Shown here one piece after another: positions 33,073 to 40,849 of a stretch of 64,000 bases of DNA. The DNA is taken from the NCBI GenBank assembly GCA_018660265.1, contig JABJKS010000057.1:1-64000 (forward strand), in the 5' to 3' direction. The number at the start of each line of letters is the position of its first letter. The stretch's first letter is position 1. A program made the translations under genes and the position numbers. Source of the stretch: Rhodospirillaceae bacterium. Lineage in GTDB: Bacteria; Pseudomonadota; Alphaproteobacteria; GCA-2731375. The notes under the pieces are model-generated. The model was not told the DNA's origin, made no database searches, and was given only the letters and a program-made list of their open reading frames with translations.

Positions 33073-33888
33073 ATGGAACCGATTAAATATGTCGATGCCC
33101 TGAACAACAAGTACGGGTCCATGGGCTTCCCGCCCTATCAGTGGAGCGAGAATGACACCGCGCCCTGGACGCCCCTAACCAAACCTTTGACGGAATGCAC
33201 AGTTGCCCTGCTGGTCAGCGGCGGCATTTCCCATTGCACCGCCGCGCCGTTTGATCCAGATGCCCGCAACGATCATCGGGTAGATGCCATCGATCCGGGC
33301 GAGGCCATGGACCAATATCAGATCCATGACAGCTATTACGATCATGCGGATGCGGACCGGGATCTCAATTGCCTGTTCCCCGTGGATCGTCTGGCCGAAT
33401 TGGCAGAACTGGGTGAGATCGGTGCGGTCGCCAATCGTCATTGGAGCGGTTTTATGGGCCGCACGTACAATCGCAGCAAGGTGCTCAACGAATCCGCACC
33501 GGCCTTTGTCGAACAACTAAAGGCGGATGGCGTTGATCTACTGATCGCGATACCTGCTTGACCGTTGGATCATCAGACCGTGGGTCTGGTATCCAGAGTG
33601 GTTGAAGAAAGCGGAATCCCGACAGTAAACGTATCCACCGGCCGCGATATTACCGCGTTGGTACGGCCACCGCGCAGCCTGTTCGTCAATTTTCCCATGG
33701 GCAATACGTTTGGCCGGGCGGGCGATAATGTCATGCAGACAAAAATCCTGCGTGCCGCGTTGGATTTTATCGTAACAGCGGAAGAACCTGGTGTGTTGGT
33801 GGACCTGCCTTTGAAATGGGACGATGATTTCGTTTATTTCGCGGGCGAGACGACACCAGAAGCTGTTGCCAAACAAATGAAGAAGTAG
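33073..33888 (+). CDS. Selenocysteine-containing GrdB/PrdB-like protein 1 (in-frame TGA at 33559)
   Basis: A single 271-aa gene read through an in-frame TGA (33559-33561, codon 163) as selenocysteine. Up to it the protein has PWTPLTKPL, RHWSGFMGRTYNRSKV and DGVDLLIAIPA; after it comes PLDHQTVGLVSRVVEESGIP and a C-terminal PRSLFVNFPMGNTFG. This is the glycine/sarcosine/betaine (and D-proline) reductase selenoprotein B family. Downstream has no ATG of its own at the break, only TTG, and the same break occurs in its homologue at 39060. A hairpin fitting a SECIS follows 5 nt after the TGA. Unlike its paralog, the residue at Sec+3 is Asp, not Cys. GAGG precedes ATG 33073. Function in this organism is unknown. 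Confidence 0.9.
33567..33594 (+). promoter_or_regulatory. Candidate SECIS element, selenoprotein 1
   Basis: The RNA can fold as ggat/atcc outer stem, a 2x1 internal loop, then a 7-bp inner stem tcagacc/ggtctgg closed by gug. It begins 5 nt after the in-frame TGA, within the mRNA position where bacterial SECIS elements work, and has G at the start of the apical loop. Confidence 0.8.
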
Positions 33889-34928: not shown

Positions 34929-35996
34929 TTAGGCGACGTCTAAACCTTGAATAGAATCATCTGCAACTTGCAATCCACGTTCGATCACGGAATTCTTCCA
35001 TTCTATTTCATTGCGATAAAAAGCTGATTTCATGGCAGCCTTAATCTCTGTGCCATCACGCCCCTCGCCATGCCACCACAGGGCATGTTCATCCCGTAGT
35101 GCCGCCAGAACATCGGAAAACGGCAGCGTGCCGAATTCTAATGTCAGGCAGATAACCCGCGCCGGGGATAGAGCTTCGATAGCACCATTACCGGTTTTGC
35201 CATGGTTGATTTTCGACGCAGTGGCGGTCATGCCCGCACCCCACCATTTTTGCGCCAGGTCATAGTCCGCCGTGTCTTTGTGGTGATAACCCATGGCGGA
35301 ACCATGGCCCGATGGCCCCAGACCTGTATGGATGTCCACATATGCCGCCAATTTCACATTCGGTAATAACCGGGGCAAGTGTTCCCGCAAGGCACGGTTA
35401 GACCAAACAGGCACCCGACCGCCGTAGAACATACCCTCTGCCGCGTCATACTGCCCGCCAATGGCGCGCATAACGTTCATCTGGCCCATTTCCTCTCGAA
35501 GTGCGGCCAGGGCCACATCCGCCTCTGTTCGGGCCGAACCGTCCAGGGCTCTCGCCGCCATGGCAGCACCGATTTTGGCATAGCCTTCATTGTAGGGATG
35601 CGCCCCTTCGTGATCGATGAAGTTTCGGTTCAGATCCACATTGTTTTCATTGACCCGGCGCAGATGGGCAAAGCCAAAGGCATTCAAACCATGCACCATC
35701 ACCACGGCCAAATTGTCCGGCAATTTGCCGGTATATTTGGCCAGCCAGGCACTTTGAACGGCAGAGCCGGCGAAGCCTTCGGCACCGTGGGTACCAGAGA
35801 CCAGGATTAGCGCGCGCTCTGCATCTCCAGGCCCCAGACGGAGGAATTCTGTACTCAATTCCAATCCATCAGGTCCGGGCGCGGGATTGACGGCATGGAT
35901 CAATTCATCGCCGCCCTCCCCCAGTTGCAAAAACAACTCCCGGCAGGCGGCAAAGTCAGGGCGAAAAAAATCCACTGGGTTCAATTTTGTACTCAA
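34929..35996 (-). CDS. DUF2817 (M14-like) metallopeptidase-family protein A
   Basis: 355-aa member of DUF2817, related to M14 zinc carboxypeptidases. GTHGAEGFAGS provides the H-x-x-E zinc ligands, the RRVNENNVDLNRNF core is intact, DIHTGLGPSGHG offers the third ligand and LEFGTLPF the general-base Glu. Predicted amidohydrolase on peptides or amide-linked compounds. It is translationally coupled (4-bp overlap) to its paralog upstream. Confidence 0.85.
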   Translation of the reverse strand: MSTKLNPVDFFRPDFAACRELFLQLGEGGDELIHAVNPAPGPDGLELSTEFLRLGPGDAERALILVSGTHGAEGFAGSAVQSAWLAKYTGKLPDNLAVVMVHGLNAFGFAHLRRVNENNVDLNRNFIDHEGAHPYNEGYAKIGAAMAARALDGSARTEADVALAALREEMGQMNVMRAIGGQYDAAEGMFYGGRVPVWSNRALREHLPRLLPNVKLAAYVDIHTGLGPSGHGSAMGYHHKDTADYDLAQKWWGAGMTATASKINHGKTGNGAIEALSPARVICLTLEFGTLPFSDVLAALRDEHALWWHGEGRDGTEIKAAMKSAFYRNEIEWKNSVIERGLQVADDSIQGLDVA

Positions 35997-37087
35997 CTGC
36001 CCGCAAGGCCCTTGATGCTTTTACGCAGAATATCCAATCCGCGTTCCCAGATCTGGGCATTCCATTCGCTATCCTCACCATAAAAGGCGGCGCGAACCTC
36101 CCGCTTGATTTTTACCCCCATTTCTGAAGTCACCTCGCCGTGCAGATATAGCCAGTTATCAGCCCGCAGGGCAGCCAATACCTGATCCACGGGCAAGGTG
36201 CCATATTCAATGGCAATGGTCGTGCTTTCCGTATTCACCAGCAAATCGTGATAGCCGGTTTCAATGGTACCGTTCACTTCCGACGAGGCGCTATCACCCG
36301 AAGCCGGCGTGCGGACTTCATCGCCATACCAGGCCACCGTGCGCAAATGTTCCGGACCGCCCGGCACATCGACGGATATCAGTTCGCCATACCCGCGCGG
36401 CCCCAGACCCGTATGAAAATCGATCAACGCCACATGACTGCGGCCCATAAGATGCTCGGCTGCCAGGGCCTCGATGGTGCGTCGTGACCAGGTCGGTGCC
36501 TGACCGCCGTAAAATATGCCGTCGGGATGACCGTGCTGGCCCAAGACAACCGCCGCTTGAAAGGCGAGCATACCGTTGCTGGCAATATAATTTTCTATCG
36601 CCGCATCGGCGGCTTCACGCGCCGGCCCATCCCAATCCGTGGGCACCAACATGGCGTGAACCTCGTCATAGGCGACATTGGCCGGCAATGGCGCATCGAA
36701 ATCGACAAAATTACGGTTCAGATCCACATTGTCTTCCGTCACCCGCCGCTCATGAGCGAAGCCGTGGGGGTTATGGGCATGCACATACATAATCGCCATA
36801 TTGTCCGGCAGTTCGTTGTGGATGTTGGTTTCAAGGAAGCCCACCTGGCAGCCGGAGCCGCAGAAACCTTCGACACCGTGGGTGGCTGACGAAACGACCA
36901 CAACTCGTTCCGCGTCCTGCGGCCCAAGATAAGCCATGTCCATGGCCAGATCGCCGCCGTCCGGGCCCTTCAAGGGATGGGGAAAGCTTTGCACCGTTGC
37001 ACCGGCAACCTTGGCGGCCACCAGAAACTTCCCCCGCGCCTCGCCATAGCTGGCCGAGAACCAATCATCAATCGCCATAAATTTCAT
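35993..37087 (-). CDS. DUF2817 (M14-like) metallopeptidase-family protein B
   Basis: 364 aa, paralogous to the adjacent protein A. THGVEGFCGSG, RRVTEDNVDLNRNFVDF, DFHTGLGPRGYG and IEYGTLP give the same zinc and catalytic set. Tandem duplicates with a 4-bp overlap suggest a heteromeric or substrate-diversified pair. Flanked on its 5' side by a strong terminator that separates it from the acyl-CoA dehydrogenase. Confidence 0.85.
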   Translation of the reverse strand: MKFMAIDDWFSASYGEARGKFLVAAKVAGATVQSFPHPLKGPDGGDLAMDMAYLGPQDAERVVVVSSATHGVEGFCGSGCQVGFLETNIHNELPDNMAIMYVHAHNPHGFAHERRVTEDNVDLNRNFVDFDAPLPANVAYDEVHAMLVPTDWDGPAREAADAAIENYIASNGMLAFQAAVVLGQHGHPDGIFYGGQAPTWSRRTIEALAAEHLMGRSHVALIDFHTGLGPRGYGELISVDVPGGPEHLRTVAWYGDEVRTPASGDSASSEVNGTIETGYHDLLVNTESTTIAIEYGTLPVDQVLAALRADNWLYLHGEVTSEMGVKIKREVRAAFYGEDSEWNAQIWERGLDILRKSIKGLAGS

Positions 37088-37156: not shown

Positions 37157-38365
37157 TTAGTTCCAGCGACGAAGTTCCAAACGCCCGATCTGGGCGCGAT
37201 GGACCTCATCGGGACCGTCCGCGAAGCGCAGGGTCCGTGAGTGGGCATAGGCATGCGCCAGGTTAAACACCTGTGACACACCGCCGCCGCCATGAACCTG
37301 CATCGCCATATCGACTACGCGGCAGGTCATGTTCGGGACCGCCACCTTGATCATGGCGATTTCCTTACGGGCCTCTTTATTGCCAACCGTATCCATCTTA
37401 TGAGCCGCGTACAGCACCAACAGACGGTTGGAATCGATGGCAATCCGCGCTTCGGCAATCCGTTCCGTGGTCACTGATTGCTCAGACACCAGTTTGCCAA
37501 AGGCAAAGCGGGATTTGGCCCGTTTGCACATGCTTTCCAAGGCCCGTTCCGCAACGCCGATTTGACGCATGCAGTGATGGATACGTCCAGGCCCGAGGCG
37601 GCCCTGCGCGATCTCAAATCCACGCCCCTCGCCCAGCAAAATCGCATCGGCAGGTACGCGCACGTTCTCAAACAGCACCTGACCATGGCCATGCGGCGCA
37701 TCGTCATAGCCGAAAACGTGGAGCATTTTTTCCACCGTGATGCCCGGGGCATCCCGAGGTACGACAATCATGGATTGTTGGCGATAACGGTCGGGGTTAT
37801 CCGGGTCCGTCTTGCCCATGAGGATCAGAACCTCGCAACGGGGATCGCCAATACCCGAGGTCCACCATTTTCGCCCGTTGATGACGTATTCATCACCCTC
37901 ACGGACGATCGCGGTTTCAATGTTCGTTGCATCGGAGGAGGCGACGGCGGGTTCCGTCATGGCAAAGGCAGAACGAATTTTGCCTTCCAACAACGGTTTC
38001 AACCAGCGTTCCTTGTGCTCATCCGTGCCGTAACGGGTGAACACTTCCATGTTACCCGTATCAGGTGCGGAACAGTTCATAGCCTCACCAGCGATGGGAG
38101 AGCGGCCCATAATCTCGCACAAAGGCGAATAATCCAGGTTGCTCATGGGTTCAACCGCGTCACTCTCGGGCAGGAACAGGTTCCACAGCCCAGCTTCGCG
38201 CGCCTTGACTTTCATTTCCTCCAAAACGGGGGGTACATTCCACCGATCCGCGTTCCCGTCGAGTTGTTCTTTGTACAAATCCTCGTTTGGGTACACTACG
38301 TCGTCCATGAATTTCAGCAGCCGCTCCTGCAAATCCTTTGAGCGGTCGGAAAATTCTGGGATCAT
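37157..38365 (-). CDS. Acyl-CoA dehydrogenase family protein (paralog B)
   Basis: 402 aa, closely similar to the gene at 26413-27609. [35 protein letters not shown] and [18 protein letters not shown] are intact. The spacing and length are those of ACAD-type enzymes acting on branched or hydroxylated acyl-CoAs, but specificity is not readable. It is divergent from selenoprotein 2, which begins 145 bp away. Confidence 0.92.
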
Positions 38366-38510
38366 CTCTTACCTATCCTTCCTTACGGTTCGTCGTATAT
38401 TTTACGTTGACGCAATGTAGCGTCTGTGGACTGCAGAGTCTCCTATCAGTTTATGCTTTAGACTGTGCTATGTTGTCACGGCACGACGATCAGAAATTGA
38501 GGTGTTTTCC

Positions 38511-39482
38511 ATGAATGAACGAACCAGCGCGGATAATGAGCTGGGCTTTGCCCCCGCCCATGACACGCCCATACCCTACATGCAGCGCTTGCGGGACTAT
38601 TACCTGGCCCTTGGCTATGGCAATCCCTATCGTTGGGCGCAATATACCGACGTCCCCTTCACACCGCTGAAAAAGCCGCTGAACCAGACCAAAGTGGGCC
38701 TGGTGGTGACCTCCGCGCCATATCAGGCGGACAAAGGCGACCAGGGACCGGGTGCTGCCTATAACGCCTCGGCCAAGTTCTATCAGGTCTATTCCGATGA
38801 TGTTGATAGCGGGCCGGATGTGCGGATCTCTCACCTGGGCTATGATCGGAAATATACCACGGCCACTGACCCAAACACTTACTTCCCCCTGGCGCAGCTG
38901 AAGCTTGCCGCCAAAGAAGGCCGTATCGGGTCGCTGGCCAGCCGTTTCCATGGCACGCCAACCAATCGCAGTCAGGTAACGACCCTGGAACAGGATTGTC
39001 CGGAAATTCTACGCCGTCTACGGGAGGATGGGGCAGAGGCGGCGGTCATTGTCGCGGCTTGACCAGTGTGCCACCAGACCGTGAGTCTGACAGCACGCTA
39101 CCTCGAAGCCAACGGCATTCCCACCGTGATCATGGGCTGCGCCAAGGATATTGTTGAACATGCCGGCGTACCGCGCTTTTTATTCTCCGACTTCCCCCTG
39201 GGCAATGCCGCCGGCAAACCCCATGATTTGGAGTCACAAAAACAGACCCTGGGACTGGCCCTGGATCTGCTGGAAAGCGCCATCGGCCCCCGCACTACGT
39301 TGCAATCACCGCAACGATGGAACGAGGATGCGGAGTGGAAGCTGGATTTCCAGAATGTGGACCGTATCCCGGCAGATGAAATCAAGCGGCGGCGCACGGC
39401 CAACGACATGGACAAAATGATCGCCAAACAGCGGCGGGAAGATGCCGGCTTGGTGAAACAACAGACCGACGCTGCGGAGTAA
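38511..39482 (+). CDS. Selenocysteine-containing GrdB/PrdB-like protein 2 (in-frame TGA at 39060)
   Basis: A 323-aa gene with an in-frame TGA (39060-39062, codon 184) read as selenocysteine. Before it: PYRWAQYTDVPFTPLKKPL and RFHGTPTNRSQVTTLEQ; after it: PVCHQTVSLTARYLEANGIP and a C-terminal VPRFLFSDFPLGN. The Sec-Pro-Val-Cys motif keeps a Cys at Sec+3, suitable for a selenenyl-sulfide. Same superfamily as selenoprotein 1, low overall identity but clear alignment on both sides of the break. GAGG lies before ATG 38511; an in-frame GTG is at 38502. Followed by a REP-like repeat and then a CoA transferase. Role unknown; the family makes reductases of glycine, sarcosine, betaine or proline in anaerobes. 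Confidence 0.9.
39068..39096 (+). promoter_or_regulatory. Candidate SECIS element, selenoprotein 2
   Basis: gtgc/gcac outer stem, 3x3 internal loop, then cagac/gtctg stem closed by cguga. It starts 5 nt after the in-frame TGA. Position and shape match the candidate after selenoprotein 1, although the stem sequences differ in part. Confidence 0.8.
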
Positions 39483-39655: not shown

Positions 39656-40849
39656 ATGACAAAGCCGTTTGAGGGCATCCGTGTCCTCGACTTTACGCAA
39701 GTGTTTGCCGGACCGTTCGGCAGTTTTCAATTGGCCCTGCTGGGCGCTGATGTGATCAAGGTGGAGCGTCCGGGCGGCGAAGAAATGCGCAACGGGCCCC
39801 TGTCGAAGGAATGGAGCGACCGCGGCATGGCGCCGGGCTGGCTGGCCATTAACAGCAACAAGCGTAACATCGCCCTGGACTTGAAGGACCCCAAAGCCAT
39901 CGAAATCGTCAAACGCCTGGCGGCCAAGGCGGATGTGGTCACGGAAAACTACCGCCCCGGCGTGATGGATCGTTTGGGCATCGGCTACGAGGCATTGTCA
40001 AAGATCAATCCGGGCCTGATCTATTGCGCCGTTTCAGGTTTCGGCCAAAACGGGCCGGAGCGTAACACACCCTCCTATGATGGGCGTATCCAGGCGGTCT
40101 CAGGCATCATGTCCATCACCGGGCATGAGGGCACCGGACCGACACGGGCGGGCTTTGCCGTTTGTGATGCGATCGGCGGCATGACGTCCGCCTTCGCCAT
40201 CGCATCCGCCTTGTTCCAACGCACGCATACGGGCAAGGGCCAATGCATTGATGTCTCCATGTTGGACAGCACCCTGGCCTTCCTCTCCCCCCTGGTCAGT
40301 GAACACACCACCACCGGCCACGTGCATGGCCAATACGGTAACCAGGCCATCTCCCGCCGCCCCACCGCGAACCTGTTCAAAGTGGGCGACGACAACCTGT
40401 TGTTGGCGGTCAATACGGAAAAACAGTTCAAGGCCTTGATGACGGCCATTGGACAACCCGAATTAATGGACGATCCACGCTTCCGGGATTGGCATGGCCG
40501 GGCCGAACATGAAGCAGCCTTGCGGGAGATTATCGAGACAGCCTTTGCCAGCGACGATATCACCACGTGGGAGGCGCGATTGGCCGAAGCAGGTGCCCCC
40601 GCCAGCCAGGTCCGCAATATCGCCGAGGCGGTCAAGCACCCCCAATTGGAACACCGCGACGTCCTGCAATCCGTGGAAAGCCCCTTCGGCACCCTGAACC
40701 TGATCGGCTCCGGCTTTCGCCTCGCCCACGGCGGCGGCAGCATCGAAACACCCCCCGCAGCCCCCGGCGAACATGCGGAAGAAGTTTTGGCTGAAGCAGG
40801 TTACAGCGCCGACGAAATCGCCGAGATTAAGACCGCTGGCCTGATTTAG
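39656..40849 (+). CDS. CaiB/BaiF family CoA transferase
   Basis: 397 aa. RVLDFTQVFAGPFGSFQLA, VTENYRPGVMDRLGIGYEAL and AVCDAIGGMTSAFAIASALF (with the family Asp) appear in order. It transfers CoA to a carboxylic acid or isomerises a CoA ester. It stands 173 bp downstream of selenoprotein 2 across a REP-like repeat and is followed at once by a VOC gene, so it may belong to the same catabolic unit. Confidence 0.92.
   Translation: MTKPFEGIRVLDFTQVFAGPFGSFQLALLGADVIKVERPGGEEMRNGPLSKEWSDRGMAPGWLAINSNKRNIALDLKDPKAIEIVKRLAAKADVVTENYRPGVMDRLGIGYEALSKINPGLIYCAVSGFGQNGPERNTPSYDGRIQAVSGIMSITGHEGTGPTRAGFAVCDAIGGMTSAFAIASALFQRTHTGKGQCIDVSMLDSTLAFLSPLVSEHTTTGHVHGQYGNQAISRRPTANLFKVGDDNLLLAVNTEKQFKALMTAIGQPELMDDPRFRDWHGRAEHEAALREIIETAFASDDITTWEARLAEAGAPASQVRNIAEAVKHPQLEHRDVLQSVESPFGTLNLIGSGFRLAHGGGSIETPPAAPGEHAEEVLAEAGYSADEIAEIKTAGLI

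Follow-up and report, generated by a model that had tools for sequence, protein, structure and literature searches.

A PrdB/GrdB-like selenoprotein gene with a conserved class III CoA-transferase neighbour in a Rhodospirillaceae bacterium

The gene at positions 38511-39482 (forward strand) of the 64,000-nucleotide stretch of Rhodospirillaceae bacterium DNA analyzed in this study, hereafter called the window, very probably reads an internal UGA codon as selenocysteine (Sec), as judged from comparative evidence. Its product of 323 residues belongs to the GrdB/PrdB superfamily, and the gene forms a conserved pair with the gene of a family III CoA-transferase (CaiB/BaiF). The selenoprotein reading is nearly certain. 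We regard as an evenly balanced call the fuller reading, in which the product is a stand-alone enzyme of PrdB type whose selenol would act on CoA-linked carbonyl substrates. Since the family is already known, the interest of the case lies in the missing partner protein and in the operon, and not in selenocysteine itself.

The frame of the gene is open throughout except for a sole internal stop, the TGA at 39060-39062, as had been described in the earlier note on this DNA. The TGA falls on residue 184 (U184), so that the Sec-Pro-Val-Cys motif claimed in the same note is found as UPVC. From the TGA on, the protein reads UPVCHQTVSLTAR, and the sequence directly after residue 184 is PVCHQTVSLTAR. 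A possible Shine-Dalgarno sequence, GAGGTG, was read by eye at 38499-38504 (forward strand), upstream of the ATG codon at 38511. In the confident AlphaFold model of the product (pLDDT 92.9, pTM 0.89), the Sec residue is placed between a strand and a helix, the UPVC motif forms the helix start, and the second Cys stands three residues past the Sec. A sequence search of solved structures with the product yielded a single match, to an irrelevant designed protein (E 0.077), and Foldseek found nothing in the PDB at E <=0.001 for the model. The VIA-align rows, which reach Z 8.8, consist for the most part of folds of LacI-type, short-chain dehydrogenase, response-regulator, cobalamin-binding, and solute-binding proteins, and we take them to reflect a common alpha/beta arrangement only.

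The earlier note had proposed to compare substitutions on the two sides of the TGA. Against ten orthologues from the same genus, the 80 codons ahead of the TGA give a dN/dS of 0.06-0.13, and the 80 codons that follow it give 0.09-0.17. The stretch 3' of the TGA is under purifying selection, which argues against a decaying tail. Both alternative frames of the region contain stops in all 11 same-genus sequences.

A second PrdB/GrdB-like selenoprotein gene is located at 33073-33888 of the window (forward strand). It has a TGA at 33559-33561, corresponding to U163, in the motif UPLDHQTV and thus has no second Cys. The Sec positions of the two products align, in agreement with the homology of the two TGA codons proposed earlier. 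Asp in place of the second Cys is also found in all six TGA-containing relatives of the 33073-33888 type that were examined (L157, L158, L159, L182, L184, and L187), and a Cys form of this type (L181) carries CPLD. The retention of UPLD or CPLD among these relatives indicates a conserved subfamily that functions with no second thiol. A tandem pair of DUF2817 genes (34929-37087), which is kept in most loci of the same genus, separates the two selenoprotein genes of the window.

The in-frame TGA recurs across the family. The selenoprotein reading of the earlier note is supported, but its count of two cases has to be raised, as the 5.5-Mb genome from which the window comes contains six family members with one in-frame TGA apiece. 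A search among relatives found the family in 17 of 61 genomes, with 97 matches. Exactly one TGA is present in 96 of them, its location within the match having been read in the fetched matches only, and the remaining match, situated at a contig end, begins only past the Sec position. In the genus of the window, each of 11 genomes holds from 6 to 11 matches, some of which are contig-end fragments.

The codon at the Sec site was located in 135 members of the family, and it is TGA in 48, TGC in 71, TGT in 16, and no other codon in any of them. The Cys codons that the earlier note had advised to look for in place of TGA therefore do occur in homologues. Since 80 of the Cys copies were picked by a pattern that required Cys, the share obtained without selection for Cys is 48 TGA to 7 Cys codons (n = 55), and these 80 Cys contig loci may partly overlap with the sampled genomes. 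A quick family tree of 89 rows, from which every other one of the 80 Cys contig loci and the members nearer to the second window protein were omitted, requires at least six changes between Sec and Cys, three of them forced by starred branches; its rooting is poor, its long branches meet, and the direction of change is not settled by it. As far as can be judged from this tree, the swap between Sec and Cys seems to have happened repeatedly in the family.

Several individual copies deviate from the common pattern. In one of them (L143, G104:C22), the Sec site carries TGC and the TGA falls on residue 4 of the match, and the other copy in its genome has TGA at the site. Two further copies, L134 (G292) and L138 (G199), show extra stops at the C-terminal end of the match. 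A TAG interrupts the Cys copy L142 at residue 52 of its match, and this copy is perhaps decayed or misassembled. Another Cys copy (L147, G108:C14) stands alongside Sec copies in a genome that also has SelB.

The Sec machinery, on whose presence the earlier note had made its reading depend, is found in the genome of the window. It comprises a tRNA-Sec with the anticodon TCA (66.1 bits), the elongation factor SelB (430.9 bits, cut-off 242.25), a SelA-like gene, named from its sequence and place, that immediately precedes the SelB gene, and SelD (391.5 bits; L198, G000:C31:57158-58084). The selD gene has one TGA within it, which makes SelD a candidate selenoprotein too. A second SelD-like gene, free of TGA, is present elsewhere in the genome (L199).

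In the class sample, the family was found in 22 of 289 genomes at E 1e-30. SelB (E 1e-60) is present in 16 of the 17 genomes with a TGA copy versus none of the five with Cys copies only (Fisher p 2.3e-4, relatedness ignored); three of the 17, including the genome of the window, come from the window's genus, so that the 17 are not all independent. The sole TGA genome showing no SelB (G025) is 77% complete. SelB also occurs in genomes without a family match, giving a total of 41 among the 289 genomes of the class. Three of these genomes (G104, G136, and G239) encode a more divergent SelB of 297-311 bits, and the remaining 38 of the 41 score at least 380 bits. In G136 the divergent SelB is accompanied by a Sec copy (L144, 1987-2034) with a different hairpin loop; SelB and the SECIS element may have changed together.

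A bacterial SECIS hairpin is located at 39068-39096 (forward strand), shortly downstream of the TGA. A search against Rfam at the gathering thresholds gave no family within the window, and for that reason the hairpin was examined by alignment. The structure agrees with that drawn in the earlier note: an outer stem of 4 bp, GTGC (39068-39071) with GCAC (39093-39096), and an inner stem of 5 bp, CAGAC (39075-39079) with GTCTG (39085-39089), enclose the G-containing loop CGTGA (39080-39084). According to the available text on the bacterial SECIS model, the apical loop has 3-9 nt, the upper stem has 4-16 bp, G stands early in the loop, the spacing is 16-37 nt, and the MFE is <=-7.5 (PMC13188914). 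The hairpin at 39068-39096 lies inside every one of these limits, with a loop of 5 nt, an inner stem of 5 bp, 17 nt from the UGA to the apical loop, and a folding energy of -16.1 kcal/mol. The loop has its G at the second position, followed by U, as the model requires.

Across the 48 Sec copies the hairpin is kept, and its stems show compensatory changes. The expected partners pair in 85.0% of cells, versus 22.9-40.9% with the partner slid. Compensatory changes occur at 6 of 11 pairs, where shuffling would lead one to expect 3.2 and a count of 6 was attained in 8 of 500 shuffles, and the covariation score is 0.201 versus 0.121 for shuffled alignments, with none of 500 shuffles equaling it. For instance, pair 15-31, which joins a wobble position with a first codon position, is U-A in 21 copies, C-G in 17, and G-C in 2, and pair 18-28 is G-C in 41, A-U in 4, and C-G in 2. 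Not all of the hairpin is conserved: of the 48 copies, 26 leave the outer pair 9-37 open, 17 the outer pair 10-36, and 17 the pair 14-32. The structure alignment was built without L062 and L108, which have a stop in their given range, and without L084, L106, L130, and L143; L104 was shortened.

Codon usage in and beside the loop distinguishes the Sec copies from the Cys copies. The comparison covered copies that share the same peptide, namely UPVCHQTV among the Sec copies (44 of 48) and CPVCHQTV among the Cys copies (81 of 87). Three successive codons are fixed in the Sec copies, being ACC in 44/44, GTG in 44/44, and a codon ending in GT in 44/44, whereas at the matching places the Cys copies have ACC in 61/81 and GTG in 17/81, with AGC in 67/81 and AGT in 4/81 at the third place. 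For GTG, the contrast between Sec and Cys copies has p 4e-20, relatedness ignored. Codons that are fixed in the Sec copies but not in the Cys copies point to a constraint acting on the RNA and not on the protein. The Sec copies outside this comparison are L005 (UPLD, with the same hairpin core), L006 and L038 (UPLC, with an altered stem and the loop CGTG kept), and L144 of G136 (UPVCHQSV, with the different loop mentioned above); all four were retained in the hairpin alignment and the covariation analysis. Relative to synonymous recodings, the mean z of the folding energy is -0.66 in Sec copies and -0.28 in Cys copies. The difference is weak, and folding energy alone hardly discriminates the hairpin from its recodings.

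These data bear on two explanations in which the TGA would not encode Sec. If it were a real stop, the region would consist of two genes, or would represent a pseudogene or an assembly error. An open reading frame could indeed begin just past the TGA, at GTG 39066, but this explanation is barely credible given the recurrence of the in-frame TGA in six members of the same genome and in 96 of the 97 matches from 17 genomes, the low dN/dS 3' of the TGA, the homologues that read through with Cys at the site in an uninterrupted frame, and the synonymous sites that are fixed in TGA copies only. Equally far-fetched is the reassignment of UGA throughout the genome, for example to Trp or Cys, instead of its local recoding. 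Nothing beyond the open frame speaks for it, TGA terminates 6 of the 22 listed genes of the window, and both SelB and tRNA-Sec(TCA) are present.

The most conserved neighbour of the selenoprotein gene in the clade is the CoA-transferase family III (CaiB/BaiF) gene at 39656-40849 (forward strand, 384.8 bits). In 19 of the clade's 22 Sec loci, a gene of this family is found 0-246 bp 3' of the selenoprotein gene, on the same strand; 11 of these loci belong to the genus of the window. Among 80 Cys loci, of which some stop at contig ends, 13 have such a gene at a distance of no more than 185 bp. All distances were taken from one matched range to the next. The CoA-transferase of L162, L163, and L165, three of the 19 Sec loci, is a distant paralogue with 30-31% identity, and the Sec loci without a CoA-transferase are L168, L169, and L188. 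The pair is also retained with the Cys homologue of Belnapia. Neighbours were called by tblastn of the window genes, and a clustering based on a simple ORF picker was set aside because shadow ORFs were mixed in.

An acyl-CoA dehydrogenase gene (37157-38365, reverse strand) is transcribed divergently from the selenoprotein gene. It occupies the same place in 10 of 11 same-genus loci, counted as the window and L152-L161, and is missing from L161. Another family member of the same genome (L175) has a CaiB-like gene (31%) 111 bp upstream. The annotated Roseomonas and Haematobacter plasmids have other neighbours, and their gene tables, which are incomplete, list no CoA-transferase within 8 kb of the homologue. 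In the Roseomonas plasmid (L192, 8881-10353), the Cys homologue adjoins SelO. CoA-transferases of family III are common genes, and hence a link to CoA chemistry is no more than suggested. With this strength, the conserved neighbour points to CoA-linked metabolism for the present PrdB/GrdB-like branch.

In the clostridial enzymes, a pyruvoyl partner activates proline or glycine, and the selenolate of GrdB or PrdB attacks the carbon next to the carbonyl activated by this partner. A pyruvoyl protein of the PrdA/GrdE type (PF09338) was found in none of 24 family-holding genomes, which were chosen among the genomes then known to hold the family and include the genome of the window (97% complete). 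The same search gave a match in both control plasmids, one of which has an annotated prdA. GrdA (PF04723) was likewise found above the cut-off in none of 24 genomes, with a positive control and one sub-threshold match of 17.5 bits in G008. As neither PF09338 nor GrdA above its cut-off was detected, the label of proline or glycine reductase is not transferable without further proof. Because the usual partner was not found and a CoA-transferase gene adjoins, the true job of the 38511-39482 product probably differs from that of proline reductase. In the open-access literature, we found no paper on the CoA-transferase link or on the missing partner in the present branch.

Marine metagenome papers have named pfam07355 sequences with UxxC as PrdB, and accordingly the product could be the PrdB subunit of a D-proline reductase that acts together with a PrdA-type pyruvoyl protein. 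The PrdB model TIGR04483 is the best NCBIfam match (E 1.7e-26), the Sec position is the same as in annotated PrdB, and the available text of both the GOS (PMC2398784) and the Sargasso Sea (PMC1088965) papers applies this name to such marine sequences. However, the match scores 93.1 bits against a cut-off of 300, PF09338 is missing from the 24 family genomes though matched in both control plasmids, and six diverged members in the genome of the window are ill-suited to a single amino-acid reductase. We thus consider this assignment improbable. Less so, though still doubtful, is a thiol-disulfide (selenenylsulfide) oxidoreductase, in which UPVC would serve as a thioredoxin-type UxxC motif for the reduction of proteins or small disulfides. 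The location of UxxC at a helix start would fit such a role, as would the grouping of the PrdB UxxC with thiol-dependent redox selenoproteins in the available part of the Sargasso Sea paper (PMC1088965). On the other hand, the superfamily match is to GrdB/PrdB and not to thioredoxin, the partner Cys is lacking from the UPLD motif of the 33073-33888 product and the examined relatives of its type, and the tightest gene pairing is with a metabolic gene.

We favor a stand-alone PrdB-type selenoenzyme acting on CoA-linked carbonyl substrates, which would probably work as follows. SelB would bind the hairpin 3' of the UGA at 39060-39062, and Sec-tRNA(Sec) would deliver Sec to residue 184. In the predicted alpha/beta fold, Sec would be held between a strand and a helix, with the Cys of UPVC three residues on. 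The selenolate would then attack an activated carbonyl substrate at its alpha carbon, presumably in the reductive direction, with release of the leaving group, and the resulting selenenyl intermediate could be resolved by the UPVC Cys and a cellular thiol. Because the pyruvoyl partner was not found, the substrate is probably activated beforehand, most plausibly as a CoA thioester that the CaiB/BaiF-type transferase encoded in the same putative operon would form or break up.

Extended to the whole branch, this leads to a tentative proposal, which we put forward as a possibility: a branch of stand-alone PrdB/GrdB-type selenoenzymes may operate without a pyruvoyl protein, using the selenol to cleave CoA-activated substrates supplied by a co-transcribed class III CoA-transferase, with about six differently placed members per genome. 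If so, much of what is called proline reductase in metagenomes would be a different, uncharacterised class of catabolic enzymes. An abundant marine selenoprotein family bears the proline reductase name, and the partner which that name requires was not found in the 24 genomes of the present branch; the CoA-transferase neighbour offers a tangible clue to what the substrate really is. When genes are called with UGA as a stop, such proteins would be expected to be split in two.

Among known systems, the GRDB superfamily (PF07355) matches the product with 38.6 bits against a gathering cut-off of 22, only the C-terminal part of the profile being covered (209-345 of 347). Four GRDB-type NCBIfam models match weakly; TIGR01918 gives 48.8 bits, under its cut-off of 65.45, and the cut-offs of TIGR01917, NF040794, and NF040795 are likewise missed. 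The product shares with PrdB (TIGR04483) the Sec position, the UxxC motif followed by His, and further conserved columns. Two annotated clostridial prdB genes, with the motif UGTCH, have their in-frame TGA at the position that aligns with U184. The product differs from PrdB in the low identity (28% to a clostridial PrdB), in a score of one third of the cut-off, in the pyruvoyl partner, which was not found in the 24 genomes searched, and in the CoA-transferase neighbour. The likeness to GrdB, GrdF, and GrdH of the glycine, sarcosine, and betaine reductases consists in the PF07355 match above the gathering cut-off, whereas the NCBIfam cut-offs are missed here and both the GrdE-type partner and an above-cut-off GrdA are absent from the 24 genomes searched.

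The Sargasso Sea data included 42 Sec-containing "PrdB" genes, the third most abundant family there (PMC1088965), and the GOS data 235 Sec and 110 Cys forms, assigned to pfam07355 and having UxxC (PMC2398784). Both sets resemble the 38511-39482 product in the UxxC motif, and that of GOS also in pfam07355; the available text of these papers makes no mention of partners or operons. Finally, the Roseomonas and Haematobacter plasmid copies are 59.0% and 53.8% identical, respectively, to the product over 90% of the protein, the Roseomonas copy having Cys instead of Sec, and both are named "glycine/sarcosine/betaine reductase selenoprotein B family protein" by NCBI. The gene at 38511-39482 is thus a member of an already known bacterial selenoprotein family, for which Sec is to be expected.
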